Positions 8,193 to 26,889 of a DNA stretch of 64,000 nt are shown here, in pieces. The DNA comes from Bacteroidota bacterium (GTDB lineage: Bacteria; Bacteroidota; Bacteroidia; Flavobacteriales_D; Crocinitomicaceae), in the NCBI GenBank assembly GCA_016192075.1, contig JACPUU010000022.1, forward strand, positions 124,001 to 188,000. Reading direction: 5' to 3'. The position numbers and the translations under genes are program-made. The stretch's first letter is position 1, and every line of letters begins with the position of its first letter. A model generated the notes under the pieces. The model made no database searches and was not told the origin of the DNA. It saw nothing but the letters and a program-made list of their open reading frames with translations.

Positions 8193-11100
8193 ATGAAAAA
8201 ACTACTACTTGCCTTAGCGCTTTTAGCGTCTATTGAATCTTTTGCAACACACATTATTGGTGGTGAAATTATCTACCAGCACATGGGTGGGTCCAGTTAC
8301 CTTCTCACCTGTAAGTTGTACCGCGATTGTTGTCCTACCTGTTTCGACTTTCCGGCATCGGTGCAAATTAATGTGCGTCGTGGAAATGGTACACAGCCAA
8401 CTCCCAAACTTTACACCCTGCCGTTTCAGGGGCGGACCATTCTTGATCCACCCATTGACACCTGTGCATTTGACCCGGGAATATGTGTGGAAGAAGCTAT
8501 TTTTTCAGCCGTCGTATCATTACCTCCCGGAACAGGAGGCTATCACCTGTGGATGAGTTCCAATGACAATGTCAGTGCTTTTCCAACTGGTCTCTGCTGC
8601 CGGAACAACTCCATTGACAACATCAGTACACCAGGGTCTATGAATGAGACTTTTTATGCCTACGTTCCGGACAACAACGTCTGGCTGACAAACTCGAGCC
8701 CGGTTATTGCCAATTTTCCACCGGTATTTGTATGCCAGGGGTATGATCTTGACCTTGATTTTTCAGCAACGGATGCGGATGGTGATGACCTCGTTTATTC
8801 ATTTTATACACCTTACAACAACCTGACCGGAATCAACGGTTTGGGAACTCCTCCGGACAACGTTACATTCAGCACCGTTAACTGGCTTGCCGGATACAGC
8901 GCAACCGACCCGCTTGACCCAACACCGGGATCAGTACCGGGACTGACCATTGACGCAAACGGTCACATTTCGGGAATTCCGCCAATTCAGGGCCAGTTTG
9001 TAGTGGGTGTTATGATTGAAGAGTACCGCGACGGTGTTAAAATTGGTAAAATTACCCGTGACTTCCAGTTTAACGTTCTGAACTGTCCGCCGCCGCAGGA
9101 TGCCGGAATTGGTGCTATTGACGGTTGCTCAGGCACAAACATTTCATTTATTAATGCCAGCGGATCCGGAGCAAATGGTTTCTGGTGGGACTTTGGAACC
9201 GGCAACCCGGCAGATACCAGTGTTGTTTTTGAACCAACATTCAACTACGGCGCTATGGGAACTTACCCTATCACGCTGATGGCGCAAAAAGGAACACTTT
9301 GTGCAGATACGGCTTATTATTCACTGATCATTTCCGGAATGAACGCTGATTTTACAGCACCTGATACCGTATGTATTGGTGAAGCTGCCAATTTTAATGA
9401 CATATCAACATCAGCCTTTAACGGCGTTGTCAATCAATGGGAGTGGGATTTTGGTGATAGTCAAACATCCACATTGCAAAACCCATCGCATACGTATACC
9501 GCTTCAGGCCTTCAAACCGTTCAGCTTATTGCCCATACCACTGCCGGTTGTGCAGACACCATTACCAAACAGCTTTATGTCAAGGTTCCGCCGCAGGCTG
9601 CCATTACGGCGTTGCCAGGCTGTAACGGACTCAATGTAAATTTTGATAACAACAGTGATTTGCTGGCTTCTGGTTTCTGGTGGGATTTTGGAACAAGTTT
9701 CCCTGCAGATACGAGTGTTTCAACCAACCCGACATTTGACTATAGCGCATACGGCTATGGGTCGTATACAGTCACCCTCATTGCACAAAAAGGAACAACC
9801 TGCGCTGATACCACTACGTATAACCTGATGGTATCAAATGTTGTTGCTGATTTTGCAGACCTTGATACTACCTGTACAAATGTACTGATCAATTATATCG
9901 ATCAGTCTACAAATACGAACGGTACCATTACTCAATGGCAATGGAATTTTGGAGATTTTTCAACCACTACACTGCAAAATCCAACCCATGGTTATTCAGT
10001 TGCCGGAGATTATAACGTGCAGCTTATTGTTACCAGTTCTATTGGCTGTAAAGACACCATTGTAAAACCAATTCATGTAGATGATGCACCGCAGGCAATA
10101 ATCGGGGCAACAGATTTCTGTTCAGGCTCCACAATCAATTTTGTTAACAACAGTACCAGTGGTGCAAATGGCTTCTGGTGGGACTTTGGAACCGGTAACC
10201 CGGCTGACAGCAGCATCCTTGCAAGTCCTTCATTTACCTATCCGGGATTTGGAAACTATACAGTAACACTGATTGCTCAAAAAGGTACTGTTTGTGAAAC
10301 GTCAACAACCCTGCCTATTACGATATCTGATCTCATTCCTGATTTTGATTTACCAGCCGGATCCTGCGTTGGCAGCACGGTTTCATTCATTAACCAGTCT
10401 TCTACCAGTGCCGGAACATCAATTACCGGTTACGGCTGGGATTTCGGCGACATGTCTACCAGTACACTTCAGGACCCTACGCATACCTATACAACAGGAG
10501 GAAGCATGCCGGTACAGTTGGTAGTTACCAATAACGTAGGGTGTTCAGACACCATCGTTCAGAATTTGAATATTCAGTCGTTGCCAATTGCTGATGCAGG
10601 CCCTGATACAGCGGTCTGCGTTTCAAATCCGGGACTTGAACTGAGCGGTATTGTTACCGGCGCAACAGGCGGTGTATGGACACCAAATGGCGGAGCACTG
10701 GTTCCAAGCGCAACCAACCTGAATGCAACTTATTTCCCGTCCCTGGCTGAAATGAATAACGGATCAACCCAACTCATTCTGACAACAACCGGTAACGGAG
10801 ATTGTCCTGCACAAACAGACACTATTCAGATTTTATACCTGGATACACCGGATATTAATACGGGCGGAGACATCGATGTCTGTGAAGATTCCCTGTATGT
10901 TCAGCTAAACGCCAGTGTACAATTTGCCGCAAACATTATCTGGTCAACCAACGGTGCCGGAAGTTTTGATGACGCCAGCCAGCTGAATGCCACGTACACA
11001 TTTGACCCTGCCGACGTTGCTTCAGGACAAATAACCCTGTATATTGAAACATTCAATTTTTCAGGCTGTCCGGATGATCAGGACTCACTCTACATTATAT

Positions 11101-12383
11101 TCAACCAGCCGCCAACCATGAGTCTTGTTTACGATGATACCATTTGCGCTGGTTTCCCGCTTCAGCTGGTTTCCAATTCATCTACCGGTAACGGATGGTG
11201 GCAAACTTCAGGTGACGGAACATTTGCACCGGATGATTCAGCTGCAACAGCATTCTACAATCATGGAACCGCAGATGAAACCAATGGAACAGTTGATATT
11301 TATTTCCAGACAATTGACAACGGAGGCTGCAACGCTCTGTATGATACACTGACCCTGGCTATTGTTCCTTCCCCTACTCCCGGATTCACTTTTGTTGAAA
11401 GCTGTTTTGGTTTACCAACTGTTTTCACCAATACCTCAACCAGCGTTGATCCGATTTCAGGATATGCATGGTCGTTTGAAACAGGTGGTACTTCTACACA
11501 AACGGATCCGGTTTACACCTTTGTTACTCCCGGAATTCACAACGTTGAAATGATTGTTACATCTGCCAACGGTTGTACCGATACCCTGATTCAACCGGTT
11601 AATGCGCATTATATACCGGTAGCTTCATTTGACCTTCCGGCGCCATGCTTACCAGGCGGTACATATTATTATGACGCATCAACAGTCACCGGTGACAGCA
11701 TCGCAAGCTGGAGCTGGAACTTTGGAGACGGCGGCACTTCAACTATTCAGGACCCGGTTCATCAATACTCAAGTTCACAGGGGTATACGGTTGTACTTAC
11801 CGTTACATCCGGCTTTGGCTGTTCAGATGACACCACTGCCAACGTTACCATTTTACCTGGCCCGACTGCTGATTTTGATGTTAATCCGTCAAGTGCCAAT
11901 CTTTATGTAGATCTTACTTTTACAGATCAGTCAGTTCCAAACGGATCTCCGCTTGATCAGTGGCTGTGGAATTTTGCAGATGGTGATTCCTCATCACTGC
12001 AGAACCCGGTTCACCAATATGATTACGAAGGCGAATACGATATTGAACTGATTGTGATTGATGAGGCCGGCTGCCGTGATACTGCCTACCTGATGGTTCC
12101 GATTTACCATGGTCCGCTGGTACCTTCTGCATTCTCTCCAAACGGGGATAATAACAATGACTGGCTGATGGTTCTTGGTGGAAATTTTGAGACACTTGAC
12201 TTCAAAATTTATAACAACTGGGGACAGGTTATTTTTGAAACACAGGATCCGCTGTCAATGGGATGGAACGGAATCTTTAAAGATGAACCTCAGCCAATGG
12301 GCGTTTATGTTTACGTTGCCAAAGTAACAACCTATGATGGTGTTGAGCATGTATTGTCAGGAGATGTTTCTTTAATTCGATAA
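8193..12383 (+). CDS. Giant PKD-repeat surface protein with CHU_C (type B) T9SS sorting domain, unit 1
   Basis: A 1396-aa secreted adhesin-like protein. The start is the ATG at 8193 (MKKLLLALALLASIESFA, a clean signal peptide); the frame is open from a TTG at 8163, but that would bury the signal peptide. The mature start THIIGGE is typical of this family. Next comes a Cys-rich ~300-aa N-terminal region with a cadherin-like segment (ATDADGDDLVYSF), then PKD and PKD-like modules (WDFGDxxTS, NPxHxY patterns), including three long tandem units with WWDFGTGNPADTS. Two SxxG-type Ig modules and more PKDs follow. The C-terminus from VPSAFSPNGDNNND to GDVSLIR is the ~85-aa CHU_C gliding-motility-associated domain, the type B T9SS signal. 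The PorP/SprF gene starts 3 nt downstream, followed by a PorE-like gene, as expected for a type B substrate and its partner. Confidence 0.9.
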   Translation: MKKLLLALALLASIESFATHIIGGEIIYQHMGGSSYLLTCKLYRDCCPTCFDFPASVQINVRRGNGTQPTPKLYTLPFQGRTILDPPIDTCAFDPGICVEEAIFSAVVSLPPGTGGYHLWMSSNDNVSAFPTGLCCRNNSIDNISTPGSMNETFYAYVPDNNVWLTNSSPVIANFPPVFVCQGYDLDLDFSATDADGDDLVYSFYTPYNNLTGINGLGTPPDNVTFSTVNWLAGYSATDPLDPTPGSVPGLTIDANGHISGIPPIQGQFVVGVMIEEYRDGVKIGKITRDFQFNVLNCPPPQDAGIGAIDGCSGTNISFINASGSGANGFWWDFGTGNPADTSVVFEPTFNYGAMGTYPITLMAQKGTLCADTAYYSLIISGMNADFTAPDTVCIGEAANFNDISTSAFNGVVNQWEWDFGDSQTSTLQNPSHTYTASGLQTVQLIAHTTAGCADTITKQLYVKVPPQAAITALPGCNGLNVNFDNNSDLLASGFWWDFGTSFPADTSVSTNPTFDYSAYGYGSYTVTLIAQKGTTCADTTTYNLMVSNVVADFADLDTTCTNVLINYIDQSTNTNGTITQWQWNFGDFSTTTLQNPTHGYSVAGDYNVQLIVTSSIGCKDTIVKPIHVDDAPQAIIGATDFCSGSTINFVNNSTSGANGFWWDFGTGNPADSSILASPSFTYPGFGNYTVTLIAQKGTVCETSTTLPITISDLIPDFDLPAGSCVGSTVSFINQSSTSAGTSITGYGWDFGDMSTSTLQDPTHTYTTGGSMPVQLVVTNNVGCSDTIVQNLNIQSLPIADAGPDTAVCVSNPGLELSGIVTGATGGVWTPNGGALVPSATNLNATYFPSLAEMNNGSTQLILTTTGNGDCPAQTDTIQILYLDTPDINTGGDIDVCEDSLYVQLNASVQFAANIIWSTNGAGSFDDASQLNATYTFDPADVASGQITLYIETFNFSGCPDDQDSLYIIFNQPPTMSLVYDDTICAGFPLQLVSNSSTGNGWWQTSGDGTFAPDDSAATAFYNHGTADETNGTVDIYFQTIDNGGCNALYDTLTLAIVPSPTPGFTFVESCFGLPTVFTNTSTSVDPISGYAWSFETGGTSTQTDPVYTFVTPGIHNVEMIVTSANGCTDTLIQPVNAHYIPVASFDLPAPCLPGGTYYYDASTVTGDSIASWSWNFGDGGTSTIQDPVHQYSSSQGYTVVLTVTSGFGCSDDTTANVTILPGPTADFDVNPSSANLYVDLTFTDQSVPNGSPLDQWLWNFADGDSSSLQNPVHQYDYEGEYDIELIVIDEAGCRDTAYLMVPIYHGPLVPSAFSPNGDNNNDWLMVLGGNFETLDFKIYNNWGQVIFETQDPLSMGWNGIFKDEPQPMGVYVYVAKVTTYDGVEHVLSGDVSLIR
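9104..10590 (+). repeat. Three ~495-bp tandem coding repeats in the unit 1 adhesin
   Basis: Each copy encodes ~165 aa: a Cys-starting module with FWWDFGTxxPADTS, then a PKD module with QWxWxFGDxxTSTLQNPTH. Copies begin near 9104, 9597 and 10096. Copies 1 and 3 are most alike (GANGFWWDFGTGNPAD in both). Such in-frame repeats can expand or contract by recombination. Boundaries are approximate. Confidence 0.75.
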
Positions 12384-12386: not shown

Positions 12387-13376
12387 ATGAGAAAGCTATT
12401 TATATTATTTGCTGCAGGGCTTTTCGCGGTTGAAAGCTACTCACAGGATTTTCACCTGTCACAATACGATGCAGCGGCATTAAATGCCAACCCGGGAATG
12501 ACCGGCGTTTTTAAAGGAGAATACCGCATACATGGTCATTACAGAACCCAATGGCTCGCCGTGGCAACAAAACCTTTTACCACTGGTTTGATCAGTTTTG
12601 ACATGAACAAAGGCAAATGGGGATTTGGTGGTCAGATTGCCAATTTCAGAGCAGGTACCGGCGGCTATAATGTTGTCAGCGTGCTTCCGTCTGCTGCCTA
12701 TAAAATCAGTTTTGGTGAAAAGAAATACAGTTTTATCAGTATTGGAGCTCAGGTTGGTTTTTTTCAGAAATCAATCAACGCAGCCAGTCTTACATTTGCC
12801 AATCAGTATGTAAAAACAAACGGTGGCGAATTCAATACTGCACTCAGCACCAATGAATCTTTTTCAGGAAACGGAATTATGAACCTGGATGTAACTGCCG
12901 GTGCCATGTATTATTACGCCAACCCTACCTCCATGATCAATCCTTTTGGCGGTGTTACATTTTATCACCTCAATAATCCGCAGGAGTCTTTTTTGAATGA
13001 AACCAATAAACTCCCTGTCAGAACAGAGGGAATTTTGGCGGCCCGGGTGGTTGTAACGCCAAACATATCGGTAATTCCAAAAGTGTTTTTCCAATATCAG
13101 AAAGGAGCAACCGAGCTGACGTATGCAGCCCAGGGACAATTTTACCTCTCAAACTATGACCTGTTTCTGTTAGGTGGTATAACCTACCGGAATAAAGATG
13201 CGGCTATTGTTGAATTCGGTGCCAAATATGCCAAGTTCATTGCACGTATTTCGTATGATATTAATACATCAAGCCTGACTAATGTTTCACGCGGAAGAGG
13301 GGGATCTGAATTTTCGCTTACCTATATCTTCAGTACACCAAACCCTAATCCTGTTCCAACCTGCCCAAGATTATGA
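12387..13376 (+). CDS. PorP/SprF-family T9SS outer membrane protein, unit 1
   Basis: A 329-aa outer membrane beta-barrel of the PorP/SprF family. It has a signal peptide (MRKLFILFAAGLFAVESYS), then the family hallmark near the mature start (QDFHLSQYDA...NPGMTGVF...YRTQW), with alternating hydrophobic strands throughout and an internal NKDAAIV segment. In Flavobacterium johnsoniae, SprF is needed for export of the type B cargo SprB. By analogy this protein should handle the CHU_C adhesin encoded 3 nt upstream. It overlaps the PorE-like gene (ATGATG at the stop). It is clearly paralogous to the PorP at 23795 (same QDFHLS and YRTQW blocks) and more distant from the one at 19092. Confidence 0.9.
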   Translation: MRKLFILFAAGLFAVESYSQDFHLSQYDAAALNANPGMTGVFKGEYRIHGHYRTQWLAVATKPFTTGLISFDMNKGKWGFGGQIANFRAGTGGYNVVSVLPSAAYKISFGEKKYSFISIGAQVGFFQKSINAASLTFANQYVKTNGGEFNTALSTNESFSGNGIMNLDVTAGAMYYYANPTSMINPFGGVTFYHLNNPQESFLNETNKLPVRTEGILAARVVVTPNISVIPKVFFQYQKGATELTYAAQGQFYLSNYDLFLLGGITYRNKDAAIVEFGAKYAKFIARISYDINTSSLTNVSRGRGGSEFSLTYIFSTPNPNPVPTCPRL

Positions 13377-15493
13377 TGAATCGATTTTTACTTTTTATAA
13401 TCACTGTCGTATTATCCAGTTCAGCATTCAGCCAGACAAACAATGAACTGATTAAAATGGGTGATGCAGCCATGGCCAACGGACAATATTCCAATGCCGT
13501 TCACTTTTATTCATTTATCCTGTATAAGATTCAACAGGGTGAAGAAGCACTTTACTATCCGTATGAAATATCAACAGCCTATAAAGAGCCTGAAAAAAAT
13601 GCTGACGGAACAATCAGTCCTCCAGAAAATCCAACACCAAAAGAGGTTGAATTAATTCATAAACTCGCCGATGCCTATCGGTTGGCTGATGACTACAAAA
13701 ATGCTGAAATCTGGTATGCTGCTGCATTAAAATATCCGATGGAACAATTTCCGTATGCGCAGTATTTCTATGCCGTTTCATTGATGTATAACAGCAAATT
13801 TGAAGAGGCCAGCGGGCAGTTTGAGCAATACCAGCAGCAAAACAATGATCCTGACAACCAGTACTATCAGCTGGCTACCTCCAAAATTGCAAGTTGCCAG
13901 TTTGCATTGAATCCGGACAATACCAAAGAAGGTATTACCATCACAAACCCCGGAGAAGTATTGAATGCCGGAAGCACCAGCTTTGGTCTTCAGTTTGTTT
14001 CAGACGAATACATGATTTTTTCAAGTGCCCGTGTTTCCAATACGCCGGACTCTTTATTGACAGAAGAGCGGAATCCGCTTGAACTATACATGCTGGATAT
14101 TTACCTGGTTAAATTAAATGAAGATGGCAGCCTGGGTGAAGTTGAAAAATTCCCTTTTTCGATAAACTCAAGCGAATACCATGAGGCCAGTGCTGTTATT
14201 TCTGAAGACGGAAACAGTTTGTTCTTTACCAAAATGGATCCGAATAACCGCAACGAAACAAAAATCTACGCAAGCCGCAAATTCAATAACACCTGGCTGG
14301 CACCGTTTCCAATGGATAAAAATGTAAACATGGATGGTTTCAGATCCATGAATCCGGAACTCACTGAGGATGGTAAAACTCTGTATTTCTCTACAAACAG
14401 ACCTGGCGGCGAAGGCGGTATGGATATCTGGATGACTACCGTTGGGCCCAATGGTGAAACCACTGACCCGGTTAACCTCGGAAACCAGATCAATACATTT
14501 GACGATGAACTGACTCCCTTCTACCACGATGTAACTAAAACACTCTATTTTGCCTCAGGCGGCCACATTGGTTTTGGCGGACTCGACATTTTTTCAGCAC
14601 GCTGGAATGATGAAACCGAATGGTGGGCTGAAGCAAATAACGTTGGCGCGCCAATCAACTCAAGCCGTGATGACAGCTATTACATTATTGATGAACAGCT
14701 GAAAACGGGTTACGTCACATCAGACCGTGAATCATGCATCGAATGCGATTCTATTTACAACCTTAGCATTCACTGCAACAAAATTTACCAGGTCAACCGC
14801 CCTGAGATGAAATTTTTTATCAGTGGTTATGTGTACGATGTAGCAACCAATGAAGTGATTCCGGGAGCGCGCATTGAATTTAAAGATGTCAGTTATAAAT
14901 GGGAACATTTTGAACTGGTTGCTGATGAAAATGGCTATTACGAACATGAGCTGGCCCCTAACCTGGAACTGTTTATGAGAGCTTCACAAAAAGATTATTT
15001 TGCTGATAAGGCGCTTGTATTTACACTGGGTGCAACTGAATCTAAAAATTACAAGCAGGATTTTTACCTTGAAAAAATACCAAAAGGAGAGATTACAATT
15101 GAAGGTATTGAGTACGACTTTGACAGCGCCAAACTCAGACCTGAGTCAGAAAAAATTCTAGACAACCTGATTGAATTTCTTGAGCTCAACAGCAACCTGA
15201 CCATTGAAATCAGATCACACACGGATATGCGCGGAAATGATGAATACAACCTGAAACTTTCTGAACGCCGGGCACAAAGTGTTGTTGACTATCTGGTTGA
15301 TCACGGTATTCCGCGTGAGCGGCTTATACCAAAAGGATACGGAGAAACAATGCCTGCCGAAGTACCGGAAGAGGATGGTACAATGGTTACACTTACCCCG
15401 GCATACATTGATGCGCTACCCGGGCAGGATGCAAAAGAAGTTGCGCATCAGCGAAACCGCCGTACCGCATTCTTTGTGTTAGAGCAAAATTAG
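13373..15493 (+). CDS. PorE-like T9SS periplasmic anchor (TPR / WD40 / CRD / OmpA), unit 1
   Basis: A 706-aa exported protein with the domain order of Porphyromonas PorE. After a signal peptide (residues 1-20), TPR-like helices span ~25-170 and a PD40/WD40-type propeller ~190-470 (ISEDGNSLFFTK, DGKTLYFSTNRPGG, GGLDIFSA). A carboxypeptidase-regulatory-like domain lies at ~480-570 (ISGYVYDVATNEVIPGA) and an OmpA C-terminal peptidoglycan-binding domain at ~580-706 (YDFDSAKLRPES, SHTDMRGND, LSERRAQSV). The TD and RR positions are those that bind diaminopimelate in OmpA-like domains. PorE-like proteins attach T9SS components to peptidoglycan. It is the last gene of unit 1 and is followed by a strong terminator. 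A close paralogue is encoded at 24787. Confidence 0.9.
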   Translation: MMNRFLLFIITVVLSSSAFSQTNNELIKMGDAAMANGQYSNAVHFYSFILYKIQQGEEALYYPYEISTAYKEPEKNADGTISPPENPTPKEVELIHKLADAYRLADDYKNAEIWYAAALKYPMEQFPYAQYFYAVSLMYNSKFEEASGQFEQYQQQNNDPDNQYYQLATSKIASCQFALNPDNTKEGITITNPGEVLNAGSTSFGLQFVSDEYMIFSSARVSNTPDSLLTEERNPLELYMLDIYLVKLNEDGSLGEVEKFPFSINSSEYHEASAVISEDGNSLFFTKMDPNNRNETKIYASRKFNNTWLAPFPMDKNVNMDGFRSMNPELTEDGKTLYFSTNRPGGEGGMDIWMTTVGPNGETTDPVNLGNQINTFDDELTPFYHDVTKTLYFASGGHIGFGGLDIFSARWNDETEWWAEANNVGAPINSSRDDSYYIIDEQLKTGYVTSDRESCIECDSIYNLSIHCNKIYQVNRPEMKFFISGYVYDVATNEVIPGARIEFKDVSYKWEHFELVADENGYYEHELAPNLELFMRASQKDYFADKALVFTLGATESKNYKQDFYLEKIPKGEITIEGIEYDFDSAKLRPESEKILDNLIEFLELNSNLTIEIRSHTDMRGNDEYNLKLSERRAQSVVDYLVDHGIPRERLIPKGYGETMPAEVPEEDGTMVTLTPAYIDALPGQDAKEVAHQRNRRTAFFVLEQN

Positions 15494-15516: not shown

Positions 15517-15551
15517 AAAAACCTCAAATGTTCAACCTTTGAGGTTTTTTT
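15517..15551 (+). terminator. Rho-independent terminator after unit 1
   Basis: A 12-bp perfect stem (15517-15528 with 15538-15549; AAAAACCTCAAA/TTTGAGGTTTTT) around a 9-nt loop, with the right arm ending in a run of T. It lies 23 nt after the PorE-like gene and separates unit 1 from units 2-3. Confidence 0.85.
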
Positions 15552-15604: not shown

Positions 15605-15612
15605 TATCTTTG
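15605..15612 (+). promoter_or_regulatory. Bacteroidota-type -7 promoter element (TATCTTTG)
   Basis: Exact match to the TAnnTTTG core used by the Bacteroidota housekeeping sigma factor. It lies 24 nt before the ATG at 15637 and just after the unit 1 terminator. No convincing -33 TTG is visible at the usual spacing. It probably drives the run of genes from 15637 to 26889. Confidence 0.6.
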
Positions 15613-19092: not shown

Positions 19093-20048
19093 TGAAAAAT
19101 GTAATTACACTATCGGTTCTGGTTTTACTCGCTGTTAACGCACAGTCACAGCAGCAGTTTGTTTTTACAAACTACATGCTTAATCAGTATTACTATAACC
19201 CGGCCTTACCAGGAAGCCAGTCTGTTCACCGAGCCAACATCGGTTACAGAAATCAGTGGGCAGGGTTTAATGAGGCACCGGTAACCATGCAGGCAAGTTT
19301 TTATGGTTCTTATGCCAATCAACGTAAACATGGTTATGGCGTTTCGCTGATGTCTGACCGCAGCGGACTCATTCAAAACACCAACCTTTATGTGAATTAC
19401 GCTTACCATATAAGACTGACAGATTCAATCAGACTGGGATTTGGTATTAAACCCGGATTTTTGCAATACAACGTAAAACTGTATGATGCGCAGCTGGCTG
19501 ATCCGGTTGACAATGTTTTAACAGGCAACATTCTTGCCACCAACGCCATTGACCTTGGAACCGGGTTATACCTCTATTCCAATAAATTTTTTGTTTCTGC
19601 TTCAATGAGGCACTTGCTTGGAAAATCAGTTTCCTTTACGGGTTTCAATTACGGCCTTGCAAAACATTATACCCTTATTGCCGGTTATAAATTCCAGGAT
19701 AAAAAGAAAAAACTGGAGTTTGAACCAAGCGTCATGTATCAATATGTAAGCCCGGTTCCGGCACAGCTCAGCGTAATGCTGCGCCTCACTTATAAAAACA
19801 AAATCTGGGGAGGCGTGACCATGCGCACGCAGGATGCAGTTGGTATTGTTGGCGGTGTTACCTTGTGGAACAGGTTTAGTATTGGTTATGCATTTGACTA
19901 TTCCCTGGGAGATGTACGAACTTACAACTACGGCACACATGAACTGGTACTTTCATTCATTACAACCAAAAACAAACCAACACTGGATCAGGAAGACGAA
20001 GAATTGAATAACGGTATTTTTGAAGAAAACAAGAAGAAGGACGAATAG
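19092..20048 (+). CDS. PorP/SprF-family T9SS outer membrane protein, unit 2
   Basis: A 318-aa outer membrane beta-barrel. Signal peptide MKNVITLSVLVLLAVNAQS, then the classical family start QQFVFTNYMLNQYYYNPALPGS and YRNQWAGF. The acidic/basic C-terminal tail after the last strand (DQEDEELNNGIFEENKKKDE) is absent from the other two PorP proteins here. The ATG overlaps the stop of the unit 2 adhesin (TGATG), implying translational coupling and a cargo-partner relation. It is more divergent from the unit 1 and unit 3 PorPs than those are from each other. No PorE-like gene follows it directly; the next gene is the unit 3 adhesin, 21 nt on. Confidence 0.9.
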   Translation: MKNVITLSVLVLLAVNAQSQQQFVFTNYMLNQYYYNPALPGSQSVHRANIGYRNQWAGFNEAPVTMQASFYGSYANQRKHGYGVSLMSDRSGLIQNTNLYVNYAYHIRLTDSIRLGFGIKPGFLQYNVKLYDAQLADPVDNVLTGNILATNAIDLGTGLYLYSNKFFVSASMRHLLGKSVSFTGFNYGLAKHYTLIAGYKFQDKKKKLEFEPSVMYQYVSPVPAQLSVMLRLTYKNKIWGGVTMRTQDAVGIVGGVTLWNRFSIGYAFDYSLGDVRTYNYGTHELVLSFITTKNKPTLDQEDEELNNGIFEENKKKDE

Positions 20049-20069: not shown

Positions 20070-23000
20070 ATGAAACTCATTCGAAAAATAGTATTGATTG
20101 TTGCCTTTTCGTGCTGCGGTGTGCAGCAGGTAAATGCACAGATTGATACGAATTTCTGGTTTGCCGCCCCCTGGGTGACACCCGATCACTGGTGGAGAGA
20201 TCCGATTGCTTTTCACATTTCTACATTCAGCAATCCAACGATTGTAAATATCAAGCAGCCCGCTTTGGCTTACGATACAACATTTACCGTACCTGCAAAC
20301 TCCTTGTTTACAAAATATGTTACGCACATCATGAACCAGTTGGAGAGTAAACCTGCCAATTCAGTTCTCAACTCAGGTGTACATATTACCTCCAACTATC
20401 CGATCACGGTAGTTTATGATATCATTACACGGGCCCCGAACTATTATAACCCGGAGACTTATTCACTAAAAGGAAACAATGGGCTGGGTTATGAGTTTGT
20501 TGCACCGTTCCAGACCAAATGGAATAACCAGACATTGGGTGGTGATTTAAATGGTGATGGTACGGTAACACAACCCCGGCAGCAAATTTCTATTGTTGCA
20601 TCAGAAGACAATACAACCATCTGGATTACGCCCAAATGTGCCATTGTCGGGCATCCGGCGGGTGTTACTTTTTCAGTAGTGCTGCCGCTTGCAGGTAATG
20701 TATACGCCGTTCAGAATATGGTTGGCAATACCAATGTGCTTGGAAATAACCTGGCCGGAACGGTAATCGTTTCAGACAAACCCATTTCTGTTTCAGTATC
20801 CGATGACTCTGTAAACCCAGCCGGCGGCGGCGGATGTTATGACCTGATGGGAGACCAGATTGTTCCGACCGACGTGATTGGAACAGATTACATTGTCAAC
20901 AAAGGATTTTTGAACGGTGGTTCAGATGAATCACTCTACGCTCTCGCTACTCAAAACTTTACAACCGTTACCATCAATGACGGCGTTACTACAACTACCG
21001 TAATTCTCAACCAGGGAGATACCTATTCATTTATTACCGATTACCAGTTAACCTATGTAACGGCAGATAAACCCATTTACATGCTTCACATGTCAGGATA
21101 TGGTTGTGAACTGGGTGAAGCCATACTGCCACCACTCAACTGCGCCGGATCAGACCAGGTGAGTTTTGCGCGTGCCAATGGGCAGAGTTTTCTGCTGAAT
21201 CTATTATGTCCTGCCGGTTCTGAAGGTAATTTTACCTTAAACGGATCACCCACTCTTGTTCCGGCAGCGGCATTCAGCCCTGTACCTGGTACCGGCGGAG
21301 CCTGGATGGGAGCACAAATCAGTTACAACACCACCGATGTTCCCGTTGGATCAGCCAACCTGATTTCAAATTCTTCTGATTATTTTTCATTGGGTATTAT
21401 CAACGGTGGTGCTTCAACCGGATGCCTCTATCACTATATGTCCTCATTTATCCGCCGTGTTTATGTGGATGCAGGAACTGACCAGGTTCTTTGTAAAAGC
21501 AATACCGATATTAACCTGACGGGAAGTGTTACCGGTGGCGTAACAACCGGTATCTGGAGTGTGCTGGACGGTACCGGTACGTTTGCTGACCCGGTTAACA
21601 TGAATACAACATACACTCCTTCCCCGTCTGATTATACCCAGGGATACCTCACATTTGTACTTCAGTCAACCGGCAATTGCCTGCCTGAATATGATACCAT
21701 GAGTGTTTCATTTATTGAATCACCGGTGGTTACAGCCGGTGCTGACCAGTTTTATTGCCGCAACAATGTTCCGGATATTCCGCTTAACGGAACGCTGCAG
21801 TTTGCAGTTGGATCAGTTTGGTCAGGCGGTAATGGCGGTGCCTTTGATGATATTTCAGATTTAAATACCAATTACGTTGCATCTCCGGCTGATATTCTGG
21901 AAGACAGTTTAATACTTATAATTACATCCAGCGGAAGTTTTTTCTCCTGCCCGGATGACAAAGATTCAGTGGTCATTTATTTCACAGATCCGGCAACAGT
22001 TTTTGCCGGGCCGGATATTGTGACCTGTGCCAGTCAGCCTGATGTTCCTCTGGCAGGAAGTGTTACCGGAGCTTCATCTACCGGTATCTGGACTACTTCT
22101 GGTTCCGGAAGTTTCTCTCCGTCAGAAACCAACCTGGTAACTGATTATACCATGAGTTCATCAGACACCACACTTAACAATTTAACGCTTGTACTCACCT
22201 CAACCAACAACGGCGGTTGCCTTGCCGTAGCAGACAGCCTGATGGTTACCATTCTCGACCAGCCTGAAGTGACTATTACTTCCGGAGATTCAATTTGCGC
22301 AAACCTGCCGGTCATTAACCTGGACGGAACAGTTACAACCGGTTATTCGGTTTTATGGACCGTGGATGGTTTTGGCTCAATTGCCAGCCCTGCAACGCTA
22401 AACACCACTTACACCGTGAATCCGGCAGACACGATCAATGGATCCATTATGGTACACCTGGCTACCAGCGGAGGCATTTGTCCAATTGAAGAAGACTCCC
22501 TGCTCATTTCATTTATTGCTCCGCCGGTTGCAAATGCCGGACCCGATCAGGCCTATTGCAGCAATGAACTTGTTGCGCTCAACGGTGTACTCAGCGGCTC
22601 TGCCTCATCCGGAACCTGGACATCAACCGGCACCGGAACCTTTTCACCAAGTAACATGCTGCTCAATACATTCTATGCAGCATCAGCACTTGATTTGAGT
22701 GTTGGGTCCGTTGATCTGATTTTAACCACCTCAGCTGATTTTGGCTGCATTGCTGACCAGGACACCATACAGGTTACCTATAAAGAATCACCTATGGCAG
22801 ATTTTGATTACTCATCTGCCTGTTCAGGAGAGAACACCTATTTTACAGATCAGTCAACATTTACTTCAGGCAGCATCATTACCTGGACCTATGACTTTGG
22901 AGACGCAACAGGATCCATTGCAAATGACCCTATTCACCCCTATTCCGGATCAGGAAATTACCTGGTTTCACTGATTGTTGAATCATCCAATAACTGTTTT

Positions 23001-23795
23001 GACACCATTACAAAAAATGTTTATGTAAACCCTGTGCCGGTTGCTCTCTTTACCAATGAATATGCCTGCCAGGGAGAAGATGTTGCATTTCAGGATATCT
23101 CATTTCTGGCAGCTGGAAATATACTGTCGTGGGCCTGGAATTTTAACAGTGGAGAAGGCACCAGTACATCACAGAATCCATCTTACATTTTTACAAACGC
23201 CGGAGATTTTCCGGTTATGTTAACCGTAACTTCTGATTCTGGTTGTGTTGGTACAGTAACCAACCTGGTAACGGTGCTTACCGGCCCCGACGCCGATTTC
23301 AGTGTAACACCGGTACCTGCCCTGGCACTGGAAAATGTGTTTTACACCGATTTGACCGCAGGTGCTATTACTGACTGGTACTGGAATTTTGGAGACGGCC
23401 TGGGAGGAAATCTTCAAAATGAAATCCACCAATATTCAAACGGAGGTATTTACCAGATCACACTGGAGGTAACTGATACAGCAGGATGCGTGGATACCAC
23501 CTCACAATTCATTAACATTGTTCTGCTGCCCGTTTTACCTACCGCATTTACACCCAACAATGACAACGATAACGATGTTTTCATAATTCGCGGCGGACCA
23601 TTTGAAGCCGTGGATTTTAAAGTTTACAACAACTGGGGACAGCTTATTTTTACCTCGCTTGACGCAAACGTTGGCTGGGATGGTACCTACCAGGGTGATG
23701 ATGCCCCGGTGGGCGTTTATACGTGGACCTTTGTTGTTACCATTTCAGGTGACCGGAAAATAATTAAAGAAGGTGATGTCACATTAATCAGGTAA
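20070..23795 (+). CDS. Giant IgGFc-binding-like / Ig / PKD surface protein with CHU_C sorting domain, unit 3
   Basis: A 1241-aa secreted adhesin-like protein. The ATG at 20070 (MKLIRKIVLIVAFSCCGVQQ) gives a proper signal peptide; the TTG at 20049 was rejected. The N-terminal ~430 residues are an IgGFc-binding-like domain related to that of unit 2 (DTNFWFAAP, YSLKGNNGLGYEFVAPFQ, GDQIVPTDVIGTDYIV). About five Ig-like modules (~85 aa) and three PKD modules follow, then a CHU_C domain (LPTAFTPNNDNDND ... GDVTLIR). The sorting domain is closest to unit 1 (both have DFK(I/V)YNNWGQ and end GDV(S/T)LIR), although the N-terminus matches unit 2. The downstream PorP starts within the stop codon (TAATG). 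Confidence 0.88.
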   Translation: MKLIRKIVLIVAFSCCGVQQVNAQIDTNFWFAAPWVTPDHWWRDPIAFHISTFSNPTIVNIKQPALAYDTTFTVPANSLFTKYVTHIMNQLESKPANSVLNSGVHITSNYPITVVYDIITRAPNYYNPETYSLKGNNGLGYEFVAPFQTKWNNQTLGGDLNGDGTVTQPRQQISIVASEDNTTIWITPKCAIVGHPAGVTFSVVLPLAGNVYAVQNMVGNTNVLGNNLAGTVIVSDKPISVSVSDDSVNPAGGGGCYDLMGDQIVPTDVIGTDYIVNKGFLNGGSDESLYALATQNFTTVTINDGVTTTTVILNQGDTYSFITDYQLTYVTADKPIYMLHMSGYGCELGEAILPPLNCAGSDQVSFARANGQSFLLNLLCPAGSEGNFTLNGSPTLVPAAAFSPVPGTGGAWMGAQISYNTTDVPVGSANLISNSSDYFSLGIINGGASTGCLYHYMSSFIRRVYVDAGTDQVLCKSNTDINLTGSVTGGVTTGIWSVLDGTGTFADPVNMNTTYTPSPSDYTQGYLTFVLQSTGNCLPEYDTMSVSFIESPVVTAGADQFYCRNNVPDIPLNGTLQFAVGSVWSGGNGGAFDDISDLNTNYVASPADILEDSLILIITSSGSFFSCPDDKDSVVIYFTDPATVFAGPDIVTCASQPDVPLAGSVTGASSTGIWTTSGSGSFSPSETNLVTDYTMSSSDTTLNNLTLVLTSTNNGGCLAVADSLMVTILDQPEVTITSGDSICANLPVINLDGTVTTGYSVLWTVDGFGSIASPATLNTTYTVNPADTINGSIMVHLATSGGICPIEEDSLLISFIAPPVANAGPDQAYCSNELVALNGVLSGSASSGTWTSTGTGTFSPSNMLLNTFYAASALDLSVGSVDLILTTSADFGCIADQDTIQVTYKESPMADFDYSSACSGENTYFTDQSTFTSGSIITWTYDFGDATGSIANDPIHPYSGSGNYLVSLIVESSNNCFDTITKNVYVNPVPVALFTNEYACQGEDVAFQDISFLAAGNILSWAWNFNSGEGTSTSQNPSYIFTNAGDFPVMLTVTSDSGCVGTVTNLVTVLTGPDADFSVTPVPALALENVFYTDLTAGAITDWYWNFGDGLGGNLQNEIHQYSNGGIYQITLEVTDTAGCVDTTSQFINIVLLPVLPTAFTPNNDNDNDVFIIRGGPFEAVDFKVYNNWGQLIFTSLDANVGWDGTYQGDDAPVGVYTWTFVVTISGDRKIIKEGDVTLIR
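21465..22790 (+). repeat. About five tandem ~85-codon Ig-like repeats in the unit 3 adhesin
   Basis: Successive modules starting near 21470, 21730, 22000, 22265 and 22520 share an early Cys, GxW, GxFxP(S) and a repeated YTxSPxD-type stretch, matching the modules of the unit 2 adhesin. Boundaries are approximate. Confidence 0.65.
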
Positions 23796-24790
23796 TGAAA
23801 AAATTGCGCGTTATACTAATATCCCTGGTTTTGATTTTCAAAATGCCCGCATTTGGACAGGATTTTCACTTGTCTATTTACGACGCGGCACCGCTTTACC
23901 TGAACCCGGCTATGACGGGTGTTGTAGAAGGCAGCTGGCGCATTCATGCACACTACCGCACGCAATGGAAAGCAGTCAATTTCAAACCTTATACAACCGG
24001 GCTGGTCAGTTTTGATATGCCTTATAAAAAATGGGGATTTGGCGGACAGATTATAAACTACCGTGCCGGTATTGGCAATTACAATGCACTCCAGGGGCTG
24101 GCCTCTGCGGCCTATACCTTGTCTATAGACAAAAACAGGTATCACAATCTTTCATTCGGGCTGCAGCTTGGTATTACGCAAAAATCAGTGGAGTACCAGT
24201 TACACACCTTTGACAACCAATACACCACTACCAACGGAGGAGGTTTTGACAATACACTCAACAGCGGTGAAGATTTTGGCGGACAATCCTTCATTATTCC
24301 TGAATTTAATTTTGGCGCACTCTATTATTATTCAAGGCAACAATCACGCTTAAATCCATTTATCGGAGCATCGGCATTTAATATTTTGCAACCCAAAGAA
24401 TCTTTTTTTGATGCGGCCAATGAACTGCCGTTTAGAATCTATGCGCATACCGGGGTTCGCATAAATCTGACAGAAACATTTTACATAATTCCAAAAGCGC
24501 TGTATATGCAGCAAAAGAATTTTAGTGAACTTACCTTTGCCGGCGATGTGGGCTGGTACCTGAAAGCTCCTGAAACCTGGCTGATTGGCGGACTGATTTA
24601 CCGTAACAAAGATGCGGCCGTGGTTTACCTGGGCGCTAAAAAAATCAATTACATTCTTAAATTTTCATACGACATCAATTTTTCTTCACTCTCAAATGCT
24701 TCAACCGGCAGGGGAGGTTTTGAAATTTCATTCACCTACATGCATCAAAATGCGAAACCGCAACATGTAAAAATTTGTCCGCGTTTATGA
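23795..24790 (+). CDS. PorP/SprF-family T9SS outer membrane protein, unit 3
   Basis: A 331-aa outer membrane beta-barrel with signal peptide MKKLRVILISLVLIFKMPAFG and mature start QDFHLSIYDAAPLYLNPAMTG. It is closely related to the unit 1 PorP: both carry YRTQW, TGL(I/V)SFDM, KWGFGGQI, YRNKDAA and a C-terminal SLxNxSxGRGG(S/F)E(F/I)S block. It overlaps the preceding adhesin gene by one nucleotide and the following PorE-like gene by ATGA, so the three form one coupled unit. Likely the cargo-specific partner of the unit 3 adhesin. Confidence 0.9.
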   Translation: MKKLRVILISLVLIFKMPAFGQDFHLSIYDAAPLYLNPAMTGVVEGSWRIHAHYRTQWKAVNFKPYTTGLVSFDMPYKKWGFGGQIINYRAGIGNYNALQGLASAAYTLSIDKNRYHNLSFGLQLGITQKSVEYQLHTFDNQYTTTNGGGFDNTLNSGEDFGGQSFIIPEFNFGALYYYSRQQSRLNPFIGASAFNILQPKESFFDAANELPFRIYAHTGVRINLTETFYIIPKALYMQQKNFSELTFAGDVGWYLKAPETWLIGGLIYRNKDAAVVYLGAKKINYILKFSYDINFSSLSNASTGRGGFEISFTYMHQNAKPQHVKICPRL

Positions 24791-26889
24791 TCAGAAAATT
24801 TGTTTGGCCGGCATTTCTTTTACTCCTTATTCTGCTGCCGGCAGCTGATTTTGCACAATCTAAAAAAGTGTGGCTGTACAAAGCCGATGAATCATTTGAA
24901 AAGAAAGATTATGCCACTGCATTGCGCTATTACCACATGGTACTGGATGACACACTGGGCATGTCAACCCAGGTGTTACCTTATGAAATAACGCTTTCAA
25001 ATCAAAAAATCAAAAAAGATTCTACTCAAACTCCAACTGAAAAAACAGTCAGCCTGGCACAGTATGTCAATCACCAGATGGCCATGTGTTACCGTTACAC
25101 CCAGGATGATGAAAATGCAGCATTCTATTTCAAACAATCTGCCGAATCATCAAACTATACCGATGATTATTATTACTATGGGCTTACACTCATGTACCTT
25201 GGTAACTATGAAGAGGCGCAACAGGTTTTTGATAAATACGTAGGCCTTGAAGGTGTTTCTGAAAACATGCTGAAACGCGCTTTCCGTGAAATTTCAGGCT
25301 GCCGTTATGCAATGGAAGTGCAGGAACCCGAAGAAAAAATTGAAGTGACCCTGGCCGATACGACCATTTTTAACAAGGGAACATCTTCGTTTGCGGCCAT
25401 GTACTGGGGAGACGGTTTTGACAAAGTAATTTTTACCAGTGCGCGCGATGGCGGAATTATACTTGACCCTGAAACGCAGGACTCCAAATACCTTTGTGAT
25501 TTGTATTGGTCAGAAAAAGGAGAAAACGGGGAATGGACCAGGGCCCATAATTTCGGGCGTCCGCTCAACTCAGCCAGGCATGATGCCTCCGGCGCAATTT
25601 TCAACAACTACGTTTATTATACCCGGTGGAGTGATGAGTCACGCAATGACAAACACATTTACCTGGCCCGCATGATTGACATGAAATTTTTTGAATCACT
25701 TAAACTTGATTCAACCGTTAACATGGAGGGTTTTCAAAGCATCAATCCGTTTGTTACAGCAGATGGAAAATGGCTCTATTACTCAAGCAACCGCCCCGGC
25801 GGATCAGGCGGATTTGATATCTGGCGAATTGAACTGGACGAAGTAGGCAGCCCGAAAGGAGAACCCTATAACGTAGGTGAACCACTCAATTCAGAATACG
25901 ATGAACTTTCTCCGTTTTTTCATGAAAAATCAAGTTCCCTCTTCTTCAGTTCAGACGGGCACGCAACAATGGGCGGACTCGATATTTTCAAAAGTAATTA
26001 TGACCCCGAATCAGACTTTTATGAGATGCCAATAAACCTGGGTATTCCAATAAACTCAGCACACGACGACAGCTATTACATTACCGACGAAGAAATGCGT
26101 TACGGTTTTATTACCTCAAACCGGAGTGATTGTTCTGACTGCGATTCATTGTATAAACTTTGCTCACACTGCTACAAAATATACAACGTGATGCAGCCGC
26201 CTCCGGTTTTTAAAATCAAGGGATACGTTTACGATGAGGTTACTGAAGAAGTTATTCCAGGTGCGCGTATTGAATTTAAAGATGTTAGTTACCAGTGGGA
26301 ACATTTTGAACTGGTGGCAGATGAAAAAGGATATTATGAGCATGAGCTGATTCCGAATCTGGAGCTCTTTTTGCGCTCAACCGCCAAGGGGTACTTTGCT
26401 GACAAAGCAGTGGTAATGACCAAAGGCGAACTTTACTCCAAAGTATACCGGCAGGATTTTTACCTTGAAAAAATTCCAGAAGGTGAAATTACCATTGAAG
26501 GAATTGAATATGATTTTGACAGTGCAAACCTGAGACCGGTTTCAATGGAAATTCTGGACAAGCTGATTGAGTTTCTGGAACTGAACCACAACCTGAAGGT
26601 AGAAATAAGATCACACACCGATGAACGCGGAAATGACAAGTACAACATGAGCTTGTCTGAACGCCGGGCCCAATCAGTAGTTGACTACCTGGTTGCACAC
26701 GGCATTCCGGTTGAAAAACTGGTTGCCAAAGGATACGGTGAAACCATGCCTGCTGAAATAAAAGATGAAAGCGGAAATGTGGTAACGCTTACCCCTCAGT
26801 TTATTTATTCAAACCCTGACAAAGACAAACAGGAAGAATACCATCAGCGCAATCGCCGCACGGCTTTCTTTGTACTGGAAGAGAATTAA
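24787..26889 (+). CDS. PorE-like T9SS periplasmic anchor (TPR / WD40 / CRD / OmpA), unit 3
   Basis: A 700-aa paralogue of the protein encoded at 13373, with the same domain order. The start is the ATG at 24787 overlapping the PorP stop (ATGA); a TTG at 24775 is less likely. Signal peptide MIRKFVWPAFLLLLILLPAADFA; TPR-like helices ~25-160; PD40/WD40-like propeller ~185-460 (DGKWLYYSSNRPGGSGGFDIW, where the unit 1 protein has TLYFSTNRPGGEGGMDIW); CRD ~475-565 (IKGYVYDEVTEEVIPGA); OmpA domain ~575-700 (YDFDSANLRPVS, SHTDERGND, LSERRAQSV). The CRD and OmpA parts are near-identical to the unit 1 copy while the TPR part has diverged, so specificity for the partner PorP probably lies in the N-terminal half (inference). 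A perfect palindrome surrounds the stop codon. Confidence 0.9.
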   Translation: MIRKFVWPAFLLLLILLPAADFAQSKKVWLYKADESFEKKDYATALRYYHMVLDDTLGMSTQVLPYEITLSNQKIKKDSTQTPTEKTVSLAQYVNHQMAMCYRYTQDDENAAFYFKQSAESSNYTDDYYYYGLTLMYLGNYEEAQQVFDKYVGLEGVSENMLKRAFREISGCRYAMEVQEPEEKIEVTLADTTIFNKGTSSFAAMYWGDGFDKVIFTSARDGGIILDPETQDSKYLCDLYWSEKGENGEWTRAHNFGRPLNSARHDASGAIFNNYVYYTRWSDESRNDKHIYLARMIDMKFFESLKLDSTVNMEGFQSINPFVTADGKWLYYSSNRPGGSGGFDIWRIELDEVGSPKGEPYNVGEPLNSEYDELSPFFHEKSSSLFFSSDGHATMGGLDIFKSNYDPESDFYEMPINLGIPINSAHDDSYYITDEEMRYGFITSNRSDCSDCDSLYKLCSHCYKIYNVMQPPPVFKIKGYVYDEVTEEVIPGARIEFKDVSYQWEHFELVADEKGYYEHELIPNLELFLRSTAKGYFADKAVVMTKGELYSKVYRQDFYLEKIPEGEITIEGIEYDFDSANLRPVSMEILDKLIEFLELNHNLKVEIRSHTDERGNDKYNMSLSERRAQSVVDYLVAHGIPVEKLVAKGYGETMPAEIKDESGNVVTLTPQFIYSNPDKDKQEEYHQRNRRTAFFVLEEN

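Follow-up and report, generated by a model that had tools for sequence, protein, structure and literature searches.

Eight genes in the window, which is the whole 64,000-nucleotide stretch of DNA that was analyzed, read as two operons for adhesins of type IX secretion, A1-P1-E1 and A2-P2-A3-P3-E3, where each adhesin's type B sorting domain and its PorP carrier behave as a matched cassette; we hold this reading of operons and cassette jointly with high confidence. The best explanation as a whole, to which we give a modest preference, combines the two operons with display chosen by the carrier and anchoring set by the carrier's tail. It bears on what keeps type B adhesins stationary at the cell surface rather than travelling along the gliding track. 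Cognate pairs of type B sorting domain and PorP are already published for F. johnsoniae (excerpts of PMC12618676), and what is new here is a lead connecting carrier tail cysteines to PorE cysteines, together with a paired-adhesin operon.

Gene content and operon structure

All eight genes are located on the + strand (Table 1), with gene starts set at the first ATG by a choice of this analysis. According to Pfam and NCBIfam, A1 consists of PKD repeats and a CHU_C domain, A2 and A3 consist of an IgGFc_binding domain (E = 1.9e-31 and 4e-32, respectively), PKD and CHU_C, P1 to P3 are PorP_SprF proteins, and E1 and E3 contain PD40 and OmpA domains, each above its cut-off. The best NCBIfam model for E1 and E3 is T9SS_PorE (NF052230), with 344 bits against a cut-off of 600, and we therefore call them PorE-like. 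The adhesins exceed the cut-offs of both type B sorting domain models (PF13585, cut-off 27: 47.4, 77.8 and 49.6 bits for A1 to A3; TIGR04131, cut-off 35: 38.2, 55.7 and 42.3 bits), and the carriers exceed those of both PorP/SprF models (PF11751, cut-off 22.3: 98, 232 and 124 bits for P1 to P3; TIGR03519, cut-off 90.55: 146, 242 and 175 bits). Each giant adhesin is followed immediately by its own PorP/SprF-like gene, as the first-pass annotation had claimed. The C-terminal domain of E3 matches PDB 6top (E = 3.6e-25), a PDB comparison of P3 returned chance matches only (best E = 0.74), and AlphaFold monomer models of E3 and the A2 head were too poor for a fold search (mean pLDDT 55 and 50).

Table 1. 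Positions of the adhesin, carrier and PorE-like genes and their features within the window
Feature	Position	Strand	Description
A1 adhesin	8193-12383	+	PKD repeats; head not of IgGFc type; type B (CHU_C) sorting domain 12120-12383
P1 PorP	12387-13376	+	P3-superfamily; C-terminal TCPRL
P1 tail cysteine codon (CPRL end)	13362-13364	+	
E1 PorE-like, class C (our own label)	13373-15493	+	beta-propeller repeat, OmpA; Cys cluster ~14735-14788
Predicted terminator hairpin	15517-15549	+	3' of E1, ahead of the five-gene operon; -12.6 kcal/mol, z -4.69
A2 adhesin	15637-19092	+	IgGFc_binding head, PKD, CHU_C sorting domain 18826-19065
P2 PorP	19092-20048	+	SprF-like side of PorP tree; Cys-less acidic tail; no PorE immediately 3'
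P2 tail motif DEELNNGI (pattern D[DE]xLN[NK][SG]I)	19995-20018	+	
A3 adhesin	20070-23795	+	IgGFc_binding head, PKD, CHU_C sorting domain 23538-23774
P3 PorP	23795-24790	+	P3-superfamily; C-terminal ICPRL; one Cys beyond residue 25
P3 tail cysteine codon (CPRL end)	24776-24778	+	
E3 PorE-like, class C	24787-26889	+	beta-propeller repeat, OmpA; C-terminal domain matches PDB 6top
E3 cysteine segment	26116-26184	+	invariant Cys codon 26170-26172 = C462 (protein start 24787)

The mosaic of shared parts described for the three adhesin units is present. The A2 and A3 heads, both with IgGFc_binding, are identical at 172 of 409 aligned residues (42%), and the A1 head is unrelated to either one (Z = 0.2 and 0.5). 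Units 1 and 3 share their CHU_C type (45% identity over the last 95 aa of the adhesins), PorP type (47%) and PorE (47%), while unit 2 has a different sorting-domain end (34 and 31% identity to units 1 and 3) and a different PorP (23 and 31%). Separately, the C-terminal halves of E1 and E3 look homogenized in this lineage.

The A2 stop is overlapped by P2, A3 starts 21 bases past the P2 stop, the A3 stop is overlapped by P3, and P3 is overlapped by E3; because of these overlaps and the short gap, A2-P2-A3-P3-E3 reads as one five-gene operon. A2 is separated from E1 by 143 bases containing the predicted hairpin, which was spotted by eye and was not on the list from a terminator scan (14 found, compared to a shuffle mean of 19). 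A scan for sigma-70-type promoters gave a result at chance level. The TAnnTTTG motif of Bacteroidota also occurs at chance level within the window, and its match at 15605 was therefore not used. Consequently, the eight genes are where the first-pass annotation had placed them, but its three separate units become two operons because units 2 and 3 form one. Its observation that unit 2 has no adjacent PorE holds on the 3' side only, as E1 is 143 bases upstream and E3 lies within the same operon. We rejected the reading that unit 2 lacks a PorE, since it is the first half of an operon that ends in E3.

The paired-adhesin operon is conserved, with its order kept across families. P2 (E <= 1e-60) is present in 18 of the 150 genomes searched, and in all 18 P3 is located ~4.7 kb downstream on the same strand. 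P3s with at least 58% identity number 19, including the window's own, and the only one without a P2 starts 1.3 kb from a contig end. A PorE frame follows P3 in all 18 P3 loci that were read, and a Crocinitomicaceae MAG (L210) has the identical order A2-P2-A3-P3-E3. A2 and A3, an ancient pair with IgGFc heads, have retained their order, a near-constant length and the same carriers in three family groups, and on that basis they probably act together. The operon is a natural system where one head family is presented on two different carriers at once.

Inheritance of sorting domains, carriers and heads

We compared sorting domains and carriers across nine genomes. Starting from 148 PorPs, the removal of 2 partial sequences (leaving 146) and of 35 without a usable sorting domain yielded 111 adjacent pairs; 8 of 135 PF11751 matches had been left out of the PorP census as fragments or weak, and 1 of 58 CHU_C matches is missing from later processing. 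The CHU_C and PorP distance matrices are correlated with r = 0.698, compared to a mean of 0.021 and a maximum of 0.122 in 1000 within-genome re-pairings, and in 64 of the 111 pairs CHU_C and PorP find their best cross-genome neighbor in one and the same unit (mean 4.5 and maximum 12 in 200 re-pairings). The data supports the proposal that sorting domain and PorP behave as one cassette; a check for their disagreement across genomes found agreement far above re-pairing.

As a control, we used the 96 pairs with long adhesins, excluding 15 of the 111 whose adhesin frames were too short. The last 95 aa track PorP with correlations of 0.72 (Spearman) and 0.77 (Pearson), compared to 0.12-0.20 and 0.39-0.43 for four segments farther upstream, and 0.22 and 0.43 for the heads (73 units). 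Upstream correlations are lowered because upstream domains are often non-homologous, yet these segments and the heads remain above their own re-pairings, and therefore whole units are also inherited together. Congruence can also come from tight linkage alone, which counts against a purely functional reading. A search of the literature on coevolution returned nothing relevant besides PMC9143113.

The first-pass annotation had further suggested that adhesin heads are swapped onto the cassette, and this part is not supported as a process at work here. The A2 heads (4 rows, the only ones taken into the head tree) and the A3 heads (20 rows, 19 genes) form separate clades with support of 100/100 and 99/99, respectively, and one A2-like head (49-63% identity) plus one A3-like head (39-44%) is present in 17 of the 18 genomes searched. 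In 16 of these 17, P2 and the A2 head share a contig; in the exception, G084, P2 starts 284 bases from the contig start and the A2 head is on another contig. A modular export cassette with repeated swapping of heads would account for the confirmed mosaic, for the congruence of sorting domain and PorP, and for the fact that, at large divergence, the sorting domain tracks PorP far more closely than upstream domains do. It would also account for IgGFc-like heads on other carriers, which occur with a class N PorE at G009:C45, G020:C1:3538388 and G027:C19 (24-27% to A2) and also at G003:C5:614421 (28%) and G027:C33 (38%). We nevertheless judge repeated swapping quite unlikely, because the A2 and A3 heads stay with their own cassettes and the head's nearest neighbor agrees with that of PorP in 47 of 73 units (56 of 73 for the sorting domain); ongoing swapping is not supported by the head tree and the orthologue search. 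The 73% identity of E1 and E3 over their last 234 aa, compared to 34% before, and a DNA block of 719 columns at 72% would fit a mosaic made recently in the array itself, by tandem duplication or gene conversion. However, third-codon identity is 47% in the last 699 bases of E1/E3, the heads and PorPs are far diverged, and the P2-P3 order is present in three family groups, which makes a recent origin highly implausible; the codon positions and diverged heads and PorPs led us to reject recent gene conversion. The mosaic is explained by a single old reassortment that then became fixed. The question posed by the first-pass annotation thereby has a quantitative answer: the sorting domain and PorP travel together as a cassette, and head exchange looks old and rare.

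Cysteines in carrier tails and PorEs

P1 and P3 end in CP[RKQ][LI], and this tail cysteine is present in 25 of 25 rows of P3/P1 orthologues, being the sole cysteine beyond residue 25 in 23 of them. P2 in the window has no cysteine beyond residue 25, while 4 of 19 P2 orthologues do, none of them within the listed tails. The acidic P2 tail motif is found in all 19 P2 orthologues and in 0 of the 143 other census PorPs. None of the carriers is SprF proper, which has a Cys-x-Cys periplasmic tail, as P2 has no tail cysteine and P1 and P3 have one.

PorEs beside Cys-tailed carriers have a matching invariant cysteine, and PorEs beside Cys-less carriers are without that segment. All 35 class C rows that cover the position have the PorE cysteine (31 distinct genes, as four occur twice), and in the 35 PorEs beside Cys-less carriers the column is empty. 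Among 11 class C PorEs that are 21-51% identical to E3, this column is one of 25 that do not vary. Within the P3-superfamily, which is not a secure clade because outgroup rows fell inside its tree, 12 carriers with a Cys tail have an adjacent class C PorE and 5 do not, compared to 0 and 23 carriers with a Cys-less tail (Fisher P = 1.1e-6, not phylogenetically independent because the association is read as one origin and about two losses).

In three of the five unlinked cases (G002, G009 and G020), the genome holds a clear, unlinked class C PorE (706, 496 and 545 bits) with a CC-x-D motif in frame by coordinate arithmetic; only the place of this motif is informative, because its totals are at the level of the backward control. 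A candidate unlinked PorE in G027 (C2:25566, 397 bits) scores within the range of another PorE-like family and is without the pattern, and for G027:C33 there is none. One gene beyond G014:C3:1643673, a Cys-less relative, lies a PorE that lacks the post-propeller cysteines; this PorE scores nearer class N (356 versus 277 bits) and may therefore be another PorE rather than a joint loss. At G014:C2:158953, the PorP frame runs on into an OmpA-like region.

A tail cysteine alone does not mean a PorE, because five core PorPs ending in PC[AP]KF have an upstream PorE of 520-530 aa without the cysteine segment, and 27 PorPs outside the P3-superfamily have a tail cysteine and no PorE nearby. With 3 to 11 cysteines beyond residue 30, class C PorEs could also pair them internally. 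Based on these sequence comparisons, which reflect few independent events within one order, we put a disulfide between the P1/P3 tail cysteine and the invariant PorE cysteine at about an even chance.

Proposed anchoring of the adhesins and comparison with known systems

We propose that each adhesin would exit the SprA translocon with its own PorP as carrier, picked by its C-terminal sorting domain, and would remain bound to the carrier at the cell surface, as shown for F. johnsoniae homologues. The carrier's short periplasmic tail would set what the complex is fixed to. The lone tail cysteine of P1 or P3 would be joined by a disulfide to the invariant cysteine of the PorE whose gene comes next, locking A1 and A3 statically to peptidoglycan via the PorE's OmpA domain. 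Static PorE anchoring of A1 and A3 is likely. A2 would be carried by the SprF-like P2, with its invariant acidic motif in place of a Cys tail. Since P3 accompanied P2 wherever P2 occurred, P2 may have E3 or the A3-P3-E3 complex as its partner, though docking of P2 on the E3 complex is doubtful.

Alternatively, the P1/P3 tail cysteines could bond GldK on the moving track, as SprF does, with A1 and A3 mobile and PorE incidental. The tail cysteine of SprF forms a disulfide with GldK Cys343, reported to be invariant across GldK/PorK (PMC12635249), the window genome's own GldK has six cysteines in frame, and the 27 PorE-free carriers with a tail cysteine fit such bonding. We consider it unlikely, as P1 and P3 have a single tail cysteine rather than Cys-x-Cys, the Cys tail in their clade accompanies a class C PorE and its cysteine, including the three unlinked cases, and the PorE-linked set is static in F. 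johnsoniae (excerpts of PMC12618676). Linkage alone might also suffice, if sorting domain, PorP and PorE agree as co-inherited neighbors and the cysteines have no joint role or form internal disulfides. Neighbor agreement is indeed high throughout the unit (56 to 67 of 96 across five segments), upstream segments are also above re-pairing, class C PorEs have several cysteines, and the independent events are few. Against this, the correlation is much higher in the last 95 aa, P3 has no second cysteine beyond residue 25 in nearly all rows, the cysteine partner is present in three genomes with unlinked genes, and cognate dependence was shown for homologues (excerpts of PMC12618676), all of which renders linkage alone decidedly improbable.

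Related systems are known. Fjoh_3952-Fjoh_3951-Fjoh_3950 of F. johnsoniae has the same order as A1-P1-E1 and A3-P3-E3 (type B adhesin, PorP, PorE-like); Fjoh_3952 is static while SprB is mobile, and the authors speculate that a PorE homologue keeps type B adhesins still on the surface. Sorting domain and PorP are matched there as they are here, but in the window a single operon with a single PorE holds two adhesin-PorP pairs, and we noticed no tail or PorE cysteine in those excerpts (PMC12618676). SprB-SprF on the GldJ/K/N track (PMC12635249) is likewise an adhesin and carrier without a PorE, P2 falls toward the SprF-like side in the PorP tree, and SprF's covalent use of its tail cysteine is the model for the proposed P1/P3-PorE bond; unlike SprF, the proposed partner is PorE, not GldK. 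In P. gingivalis PG1035-PorP-PorE, a type B protein is similarly held at the surface by PorP and PorE (excerpts of PMC9143113), where PorE binds peptidoglycan and 6top is its C-terminal domain (excerpts of PMC7192894). P. gingivalis differs in being non-gliding with a single set, and no PorP-PorE disulfide was noticed in the excerpts of either paper.

By analogy, we propose the PorP-PorE disulfide as the static counterpart of the SprF-GldK disulfide (PMC12635249); if true, disulfide-locked wall anchoring would be the static twin of a disulfide-locked gliding track. We also suggest, tentatively, that the short periplasmic tail of PorP is an address code for the carrier's anchor. In this scheme, a single-Cys CPxL or CPDYL tail would specify a disulfide to a class C PorE and a wall-fixed adhesin, a PR[YF][FL] tail would specify a class N PorE, a twin-Cys tail would specify the GldK track and movement, and the acidic D[DE]xLN[NK][SG]I tail would dock a second adhesin-carrier complex on the same PorE. 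A2 and A3 would then make up a surface unit of two adhesins with a shared wall anchor, and the static or mobile fate of many Bacteroidota adhesins would be predictable from a few C-terminal residues.

Composition and neighbourhood of the three adhesin units

Eight genes in the window, all on the plus strand, run in the order A1-P1-E1 and then A2-P2-A3-P3-E3, where A is an adhesin, P a carrier and E a PorE-like protein. Family profile searches found PKD repeats and a terminal type B (CHU_C) sorting domain in all three adhesins, identified P1 to P3 as PorP/SprF carriers, and placed an IgGFc_binding domain at the N-termini of A2 and A3 and not in A1. E1 and E3 are classed as PorE-like (top NCBIfam model T9SS_PorE, 344 bits versus a cut-off of 600). 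E3 matches the PorE C-terminal domain 6top (3.6e-25), and the closest named relative found for it is a Crocinitomicaceae MAG protein at 65% identity.

The first-pass annotation had described these units as a domain mosaic, and pairwise identities confirm it: the heads (adhesin N-terminal parts) are common to units 2 and 3, and the sorting domain, PorP and PorE are common to units 1 and 3. The A2 and A3 heads are identical at 172 of 409 residues, and the A1 head is unrelated to either (Z of 0.2 and 0.5). Between units 1 and 3, the last 95 aa of the adhesins are 45% identical (34% and 31% in the other pairs), the PorPs 47% (23% and 31% in the other pairs) and the PorEs 47%.

The PorE identity is unevenly spread. 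E1 and E3 are 73% identical over their last 234 aa and 34% upstream of that, and the window's E3 and that of L210, a Crocinitomicaceae MAG locus, are 71% and 62% identical over the same two parts. The wall-binding half looks homogenised between both paralogues in the window's lineage.

Positions of PorE-like genes and their downstream neighbours in the window
Feature	Positions	Strand	Assignment
E1	13373-15493	+	PorE-like
E3	24787-26889	+	PorE-like
AbiH gene	26918-28030		AbiH family (abortive infection)
Two FKBP genes	28103-29624		FKBP isomerases

The AbiH gene starts 28 bases past E3. At L210 the next frame lies about 50 bases past E3 and no AbiH-sized frame is present there; therefore, the AbiH gene looks inserted. 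Two frames with very similar C-termini, as compared by eye, lie directly 3' of the PorE gene at L210 and two further loci (L211 and L212).

The sorting domain and PorP as a cassette

We took a census of PorPs in nine genomes, the organism's own and eight others of the order. It gave 156 matches (21 own, 135 elsewhere), of which 8 fragments or weak rows were omitted, leaving 148 places; 146 of these PorPs were full length, and 111 had a usable sorting domain next to them. Across these 111 pairs, sorting-domain and PorP distances are correlated (r = 0.698), versus a mean of 0.021 and a maximum of 0.122 in 1000 within-genome re-pairings. In 64 of the 111 pairs, sorting domain and PorP have one and the same unit as their closest neighbour in another genome; in 200 re-pairings this held for 4.5 pairs on average and 12 at most.

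As a control, we compared PorP with other parts of each unit. For 96 pairs, the last 95 aa of the adhesin correlate with PorP at Spearman 0.72 and Pearson 0.77, compared to 0.12–0.20 and 0.39–0.43 for four windows upstream, values depressed because homology is often lacking among these windows. For the heads of 73 long units, the figures are 0.22 and 0.43. Though lower, the upstream and head correlations exceed their own re-pairings, so PorP is tracked by further parts of the unit as well. Nearest neighbours agree in 67/96 pairs for the sorting domain versus 56–61/96 for upstream windows, and in 56/73 units for the sorting domain versus 47/73 for heads. The earlier interpretation, that sorting domain and PorP are one co-evolving cassette onto which heads are swapped, is partly supported: sorting domain and PorP do form a cassette with congruent distances, though linkage contributes. 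The cassette itself was already known, as was sorting-domain/PorP specificity from F. johnsoniae.

The own genome holds 58 CHU_C matches (55 above cut-off) and 21 PorPs, 16 of them directly 3' of a CHU_C protein, so that, by difference, about 39 type B substrates lack a PorP behind them. By analogy, these orphans probably share carriers, as excerpts of PMC12618676 report for three type B substrates of F. johnsoniae; the excess is far greater here (55 sorting domains to 21 PorPs) than the three/twelve given there.

Several PorPs stand apart from these units. One without a sorting-domain partner lies directly 5' of gldK in all nine census genomes (G000:C16:80670, L017, in the own genome), and these mostly end in NPRFL or alike. 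Other orphan PorPs have ends like FRTISCPSF and a second upstream cysteine (G000:C1:39285, L016, and seven alike places elsewhere); 8/12 of this type lie directly 5' of a GldK-like paralogue, some paralogues being matched over only 56–102 residues. This type could be the shared carrier of orphan substrates. Two further PorP frames of the own genome (G000:C12:310804 and G000:C2:189546) are about 463–474 aa long with a C-terminal extension, and frames of like size occur in G010, G021 and G028.

Units 2 and 3 across the order

We searched 150 genomes of the order for P2 at E <= 1e-60, weaker relatives being uncounted. P2 was present in 18, carrying three family labels (f1, f3 and f10), and each of the 18 has a P3 on the same strand, about 4.7 kb downstream of P2. 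Conversely, of 19 P3s at at least 58% identity (own included), 18 accompany a P2, and the start of the remaining one is 1.3 kb from the edge of its contig. A P1-like carrier lies about 6.7 kb 5' of P2 in two genomes (G010 and G028), like in the window, and about 11 kb downstream in G100. L210 has the 3' part of an E1-like gene, followed by A2-P2-A3-P3-E3 in the window's order.

A search with the A2 head found one A2-like (49–63%) and one A3-like (39–44%) head in 17 of 18 genomes searched, the exception being the contig-edge genome (G096). The A2 head shares a contig with P2 in 16 of 17; in the other, G084, P2 starts 284 bases from the contig start. A2 open frames span 1143–1176 aa, apart from one of 492, and A3 open frames 1230–1276 aa, apart from one of 852. 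In the head tree, four readable A2 heads form one clade (100/100) and 20 A3 rows (19 genes) another (99/99), with long-branch warnings on the G026 A2 head and on rows outside both clades. A hairpin with a T run is predicted between E1 and A2 (z -4.69).

Units 2 and 3 read as a single ancient operon. From its conservation and the separate head clades, it follows that each head was joined to its own cassette before these families diverged. Heads of the IgGFc-like type also occur on other carrier types at 24–38% identity; therefore, reassortment did occur.

Carrier tails and the PorE anchor

All 25 rows of P3/P1 orthologues end in CP[RKQ][LI], and in 23 of them this cysteine is the sole one after residue 25, so no bond within the mature protein is available, provided the signal peptide is removed. 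The PorEs behind such carriers, which we call class C, share an invariant cysteine, present in 35/35 rows that have a residue at its position (31 genes once duplicates are removed), and another cysteine often immediately precedes it. When E3 is compared with ten other class C PorEs, 21–51% identical to it, its copy of this cysteine, C462, is among 25 invariant columns. In class N, the 35 PorEs behind cysteine-less carriers, the column of this cysteine is empty; two other columns near the C-terminus instead hold cysteines in 27/35 and 27/34.

Within the P3-superfamily, the group of 40 of the 146 census PorPs that holds P1 and P3, 12 have a cysteine tail and an adjacent class C PorE, 5 the cysteine alone, none the PorE alone and 23 neither (Fisher P-value 1.1e-6, which overstates independence as the carriers are related). 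For three of the five cysteine-alone carriers, the genome encodes a class C PorE that is clear but unlinked (G002:C1:1681920, 706 bits; G009:C55:47008, 496 bits; G020:C1:1855230, 545 bits) and contains an in-frame CC-x-D motif; motif totals per genome are not above a backward control, and only the motif's place is informative. The candidate in G027 (G027:C2:25566, at 397 bits) is questionable and does not show the motif, and the G027:C33 carrier, which ends in YCGF, has none. Behind one CPDL carrier, the PorE is split across frames and retains the cysteines, which lie in the second frame. The carrier G014:C3:1643673, with no tail cysteine, has a PorE one gene further that lacks the cysteines but scores closer to class N. 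Sixteen carriers ending in CPxL, CPDYL or PC[DE]R fall, with four others, in one clade of 20 (87/93), and we read the pairing as having one origin and about two losses.

Outside the P3-superfamily, 76 carriers have a sorting domain; by counts that ignore kinship, a class N PorE accompanies 26 of those ending in PR[YFWH] and is missing from 3, versus 9 and 38 for other ends. The motif D[DE]xLN[NK][SG]I is in 19/19 P2 orthologues and 0/143 other PorPs. A simple tail rule is countered by five core PorPs with PC[AP]KF ends, whose upstream PorE lacks the cysteine segment, and by 27 further tail-cysteine PorPs, all outside the P3-superfamily, with no PorE nearby. None of 22 PorPs with at least two cysteines in the last 40 residues is adjoined by a PorE.

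A 704-aa PorP frame, G014:C2:158953 (L146), runs on into an OmpA-like region. It is possibly a natural PorP-PorE-type fusion and hints at physical partnership.

The tail-cysteine pairing is a candidate lead, sharply testable. We found no description of a PorP-PorE disulfide in the available portions of open-licence PMC papers, including PMC7192894, PMC9143113, PMC12618676 and PMC12635249. Excerpts of these papers report that a type B substrate needs its cognate PorP for secretion (PMC12618676) and remains bound to it (PMC9143113), and that in F. johnsoniae a PorE-linked type B substrate forms static foci only and SprB moves (PMC12618676). A tail cysteine of SprF is reported to form a disulfide with GldK (PMC12635249). 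PorP tails are likely an address code for the periplasmic anchor. The lone tail cysteine of P1 and P3 would bond PorE, which would hold peptidoglycan via its OmpA domain. A1 and A3 would thereby be fixed to the wall, and A2 on P2 may be part of the same surface assembly.
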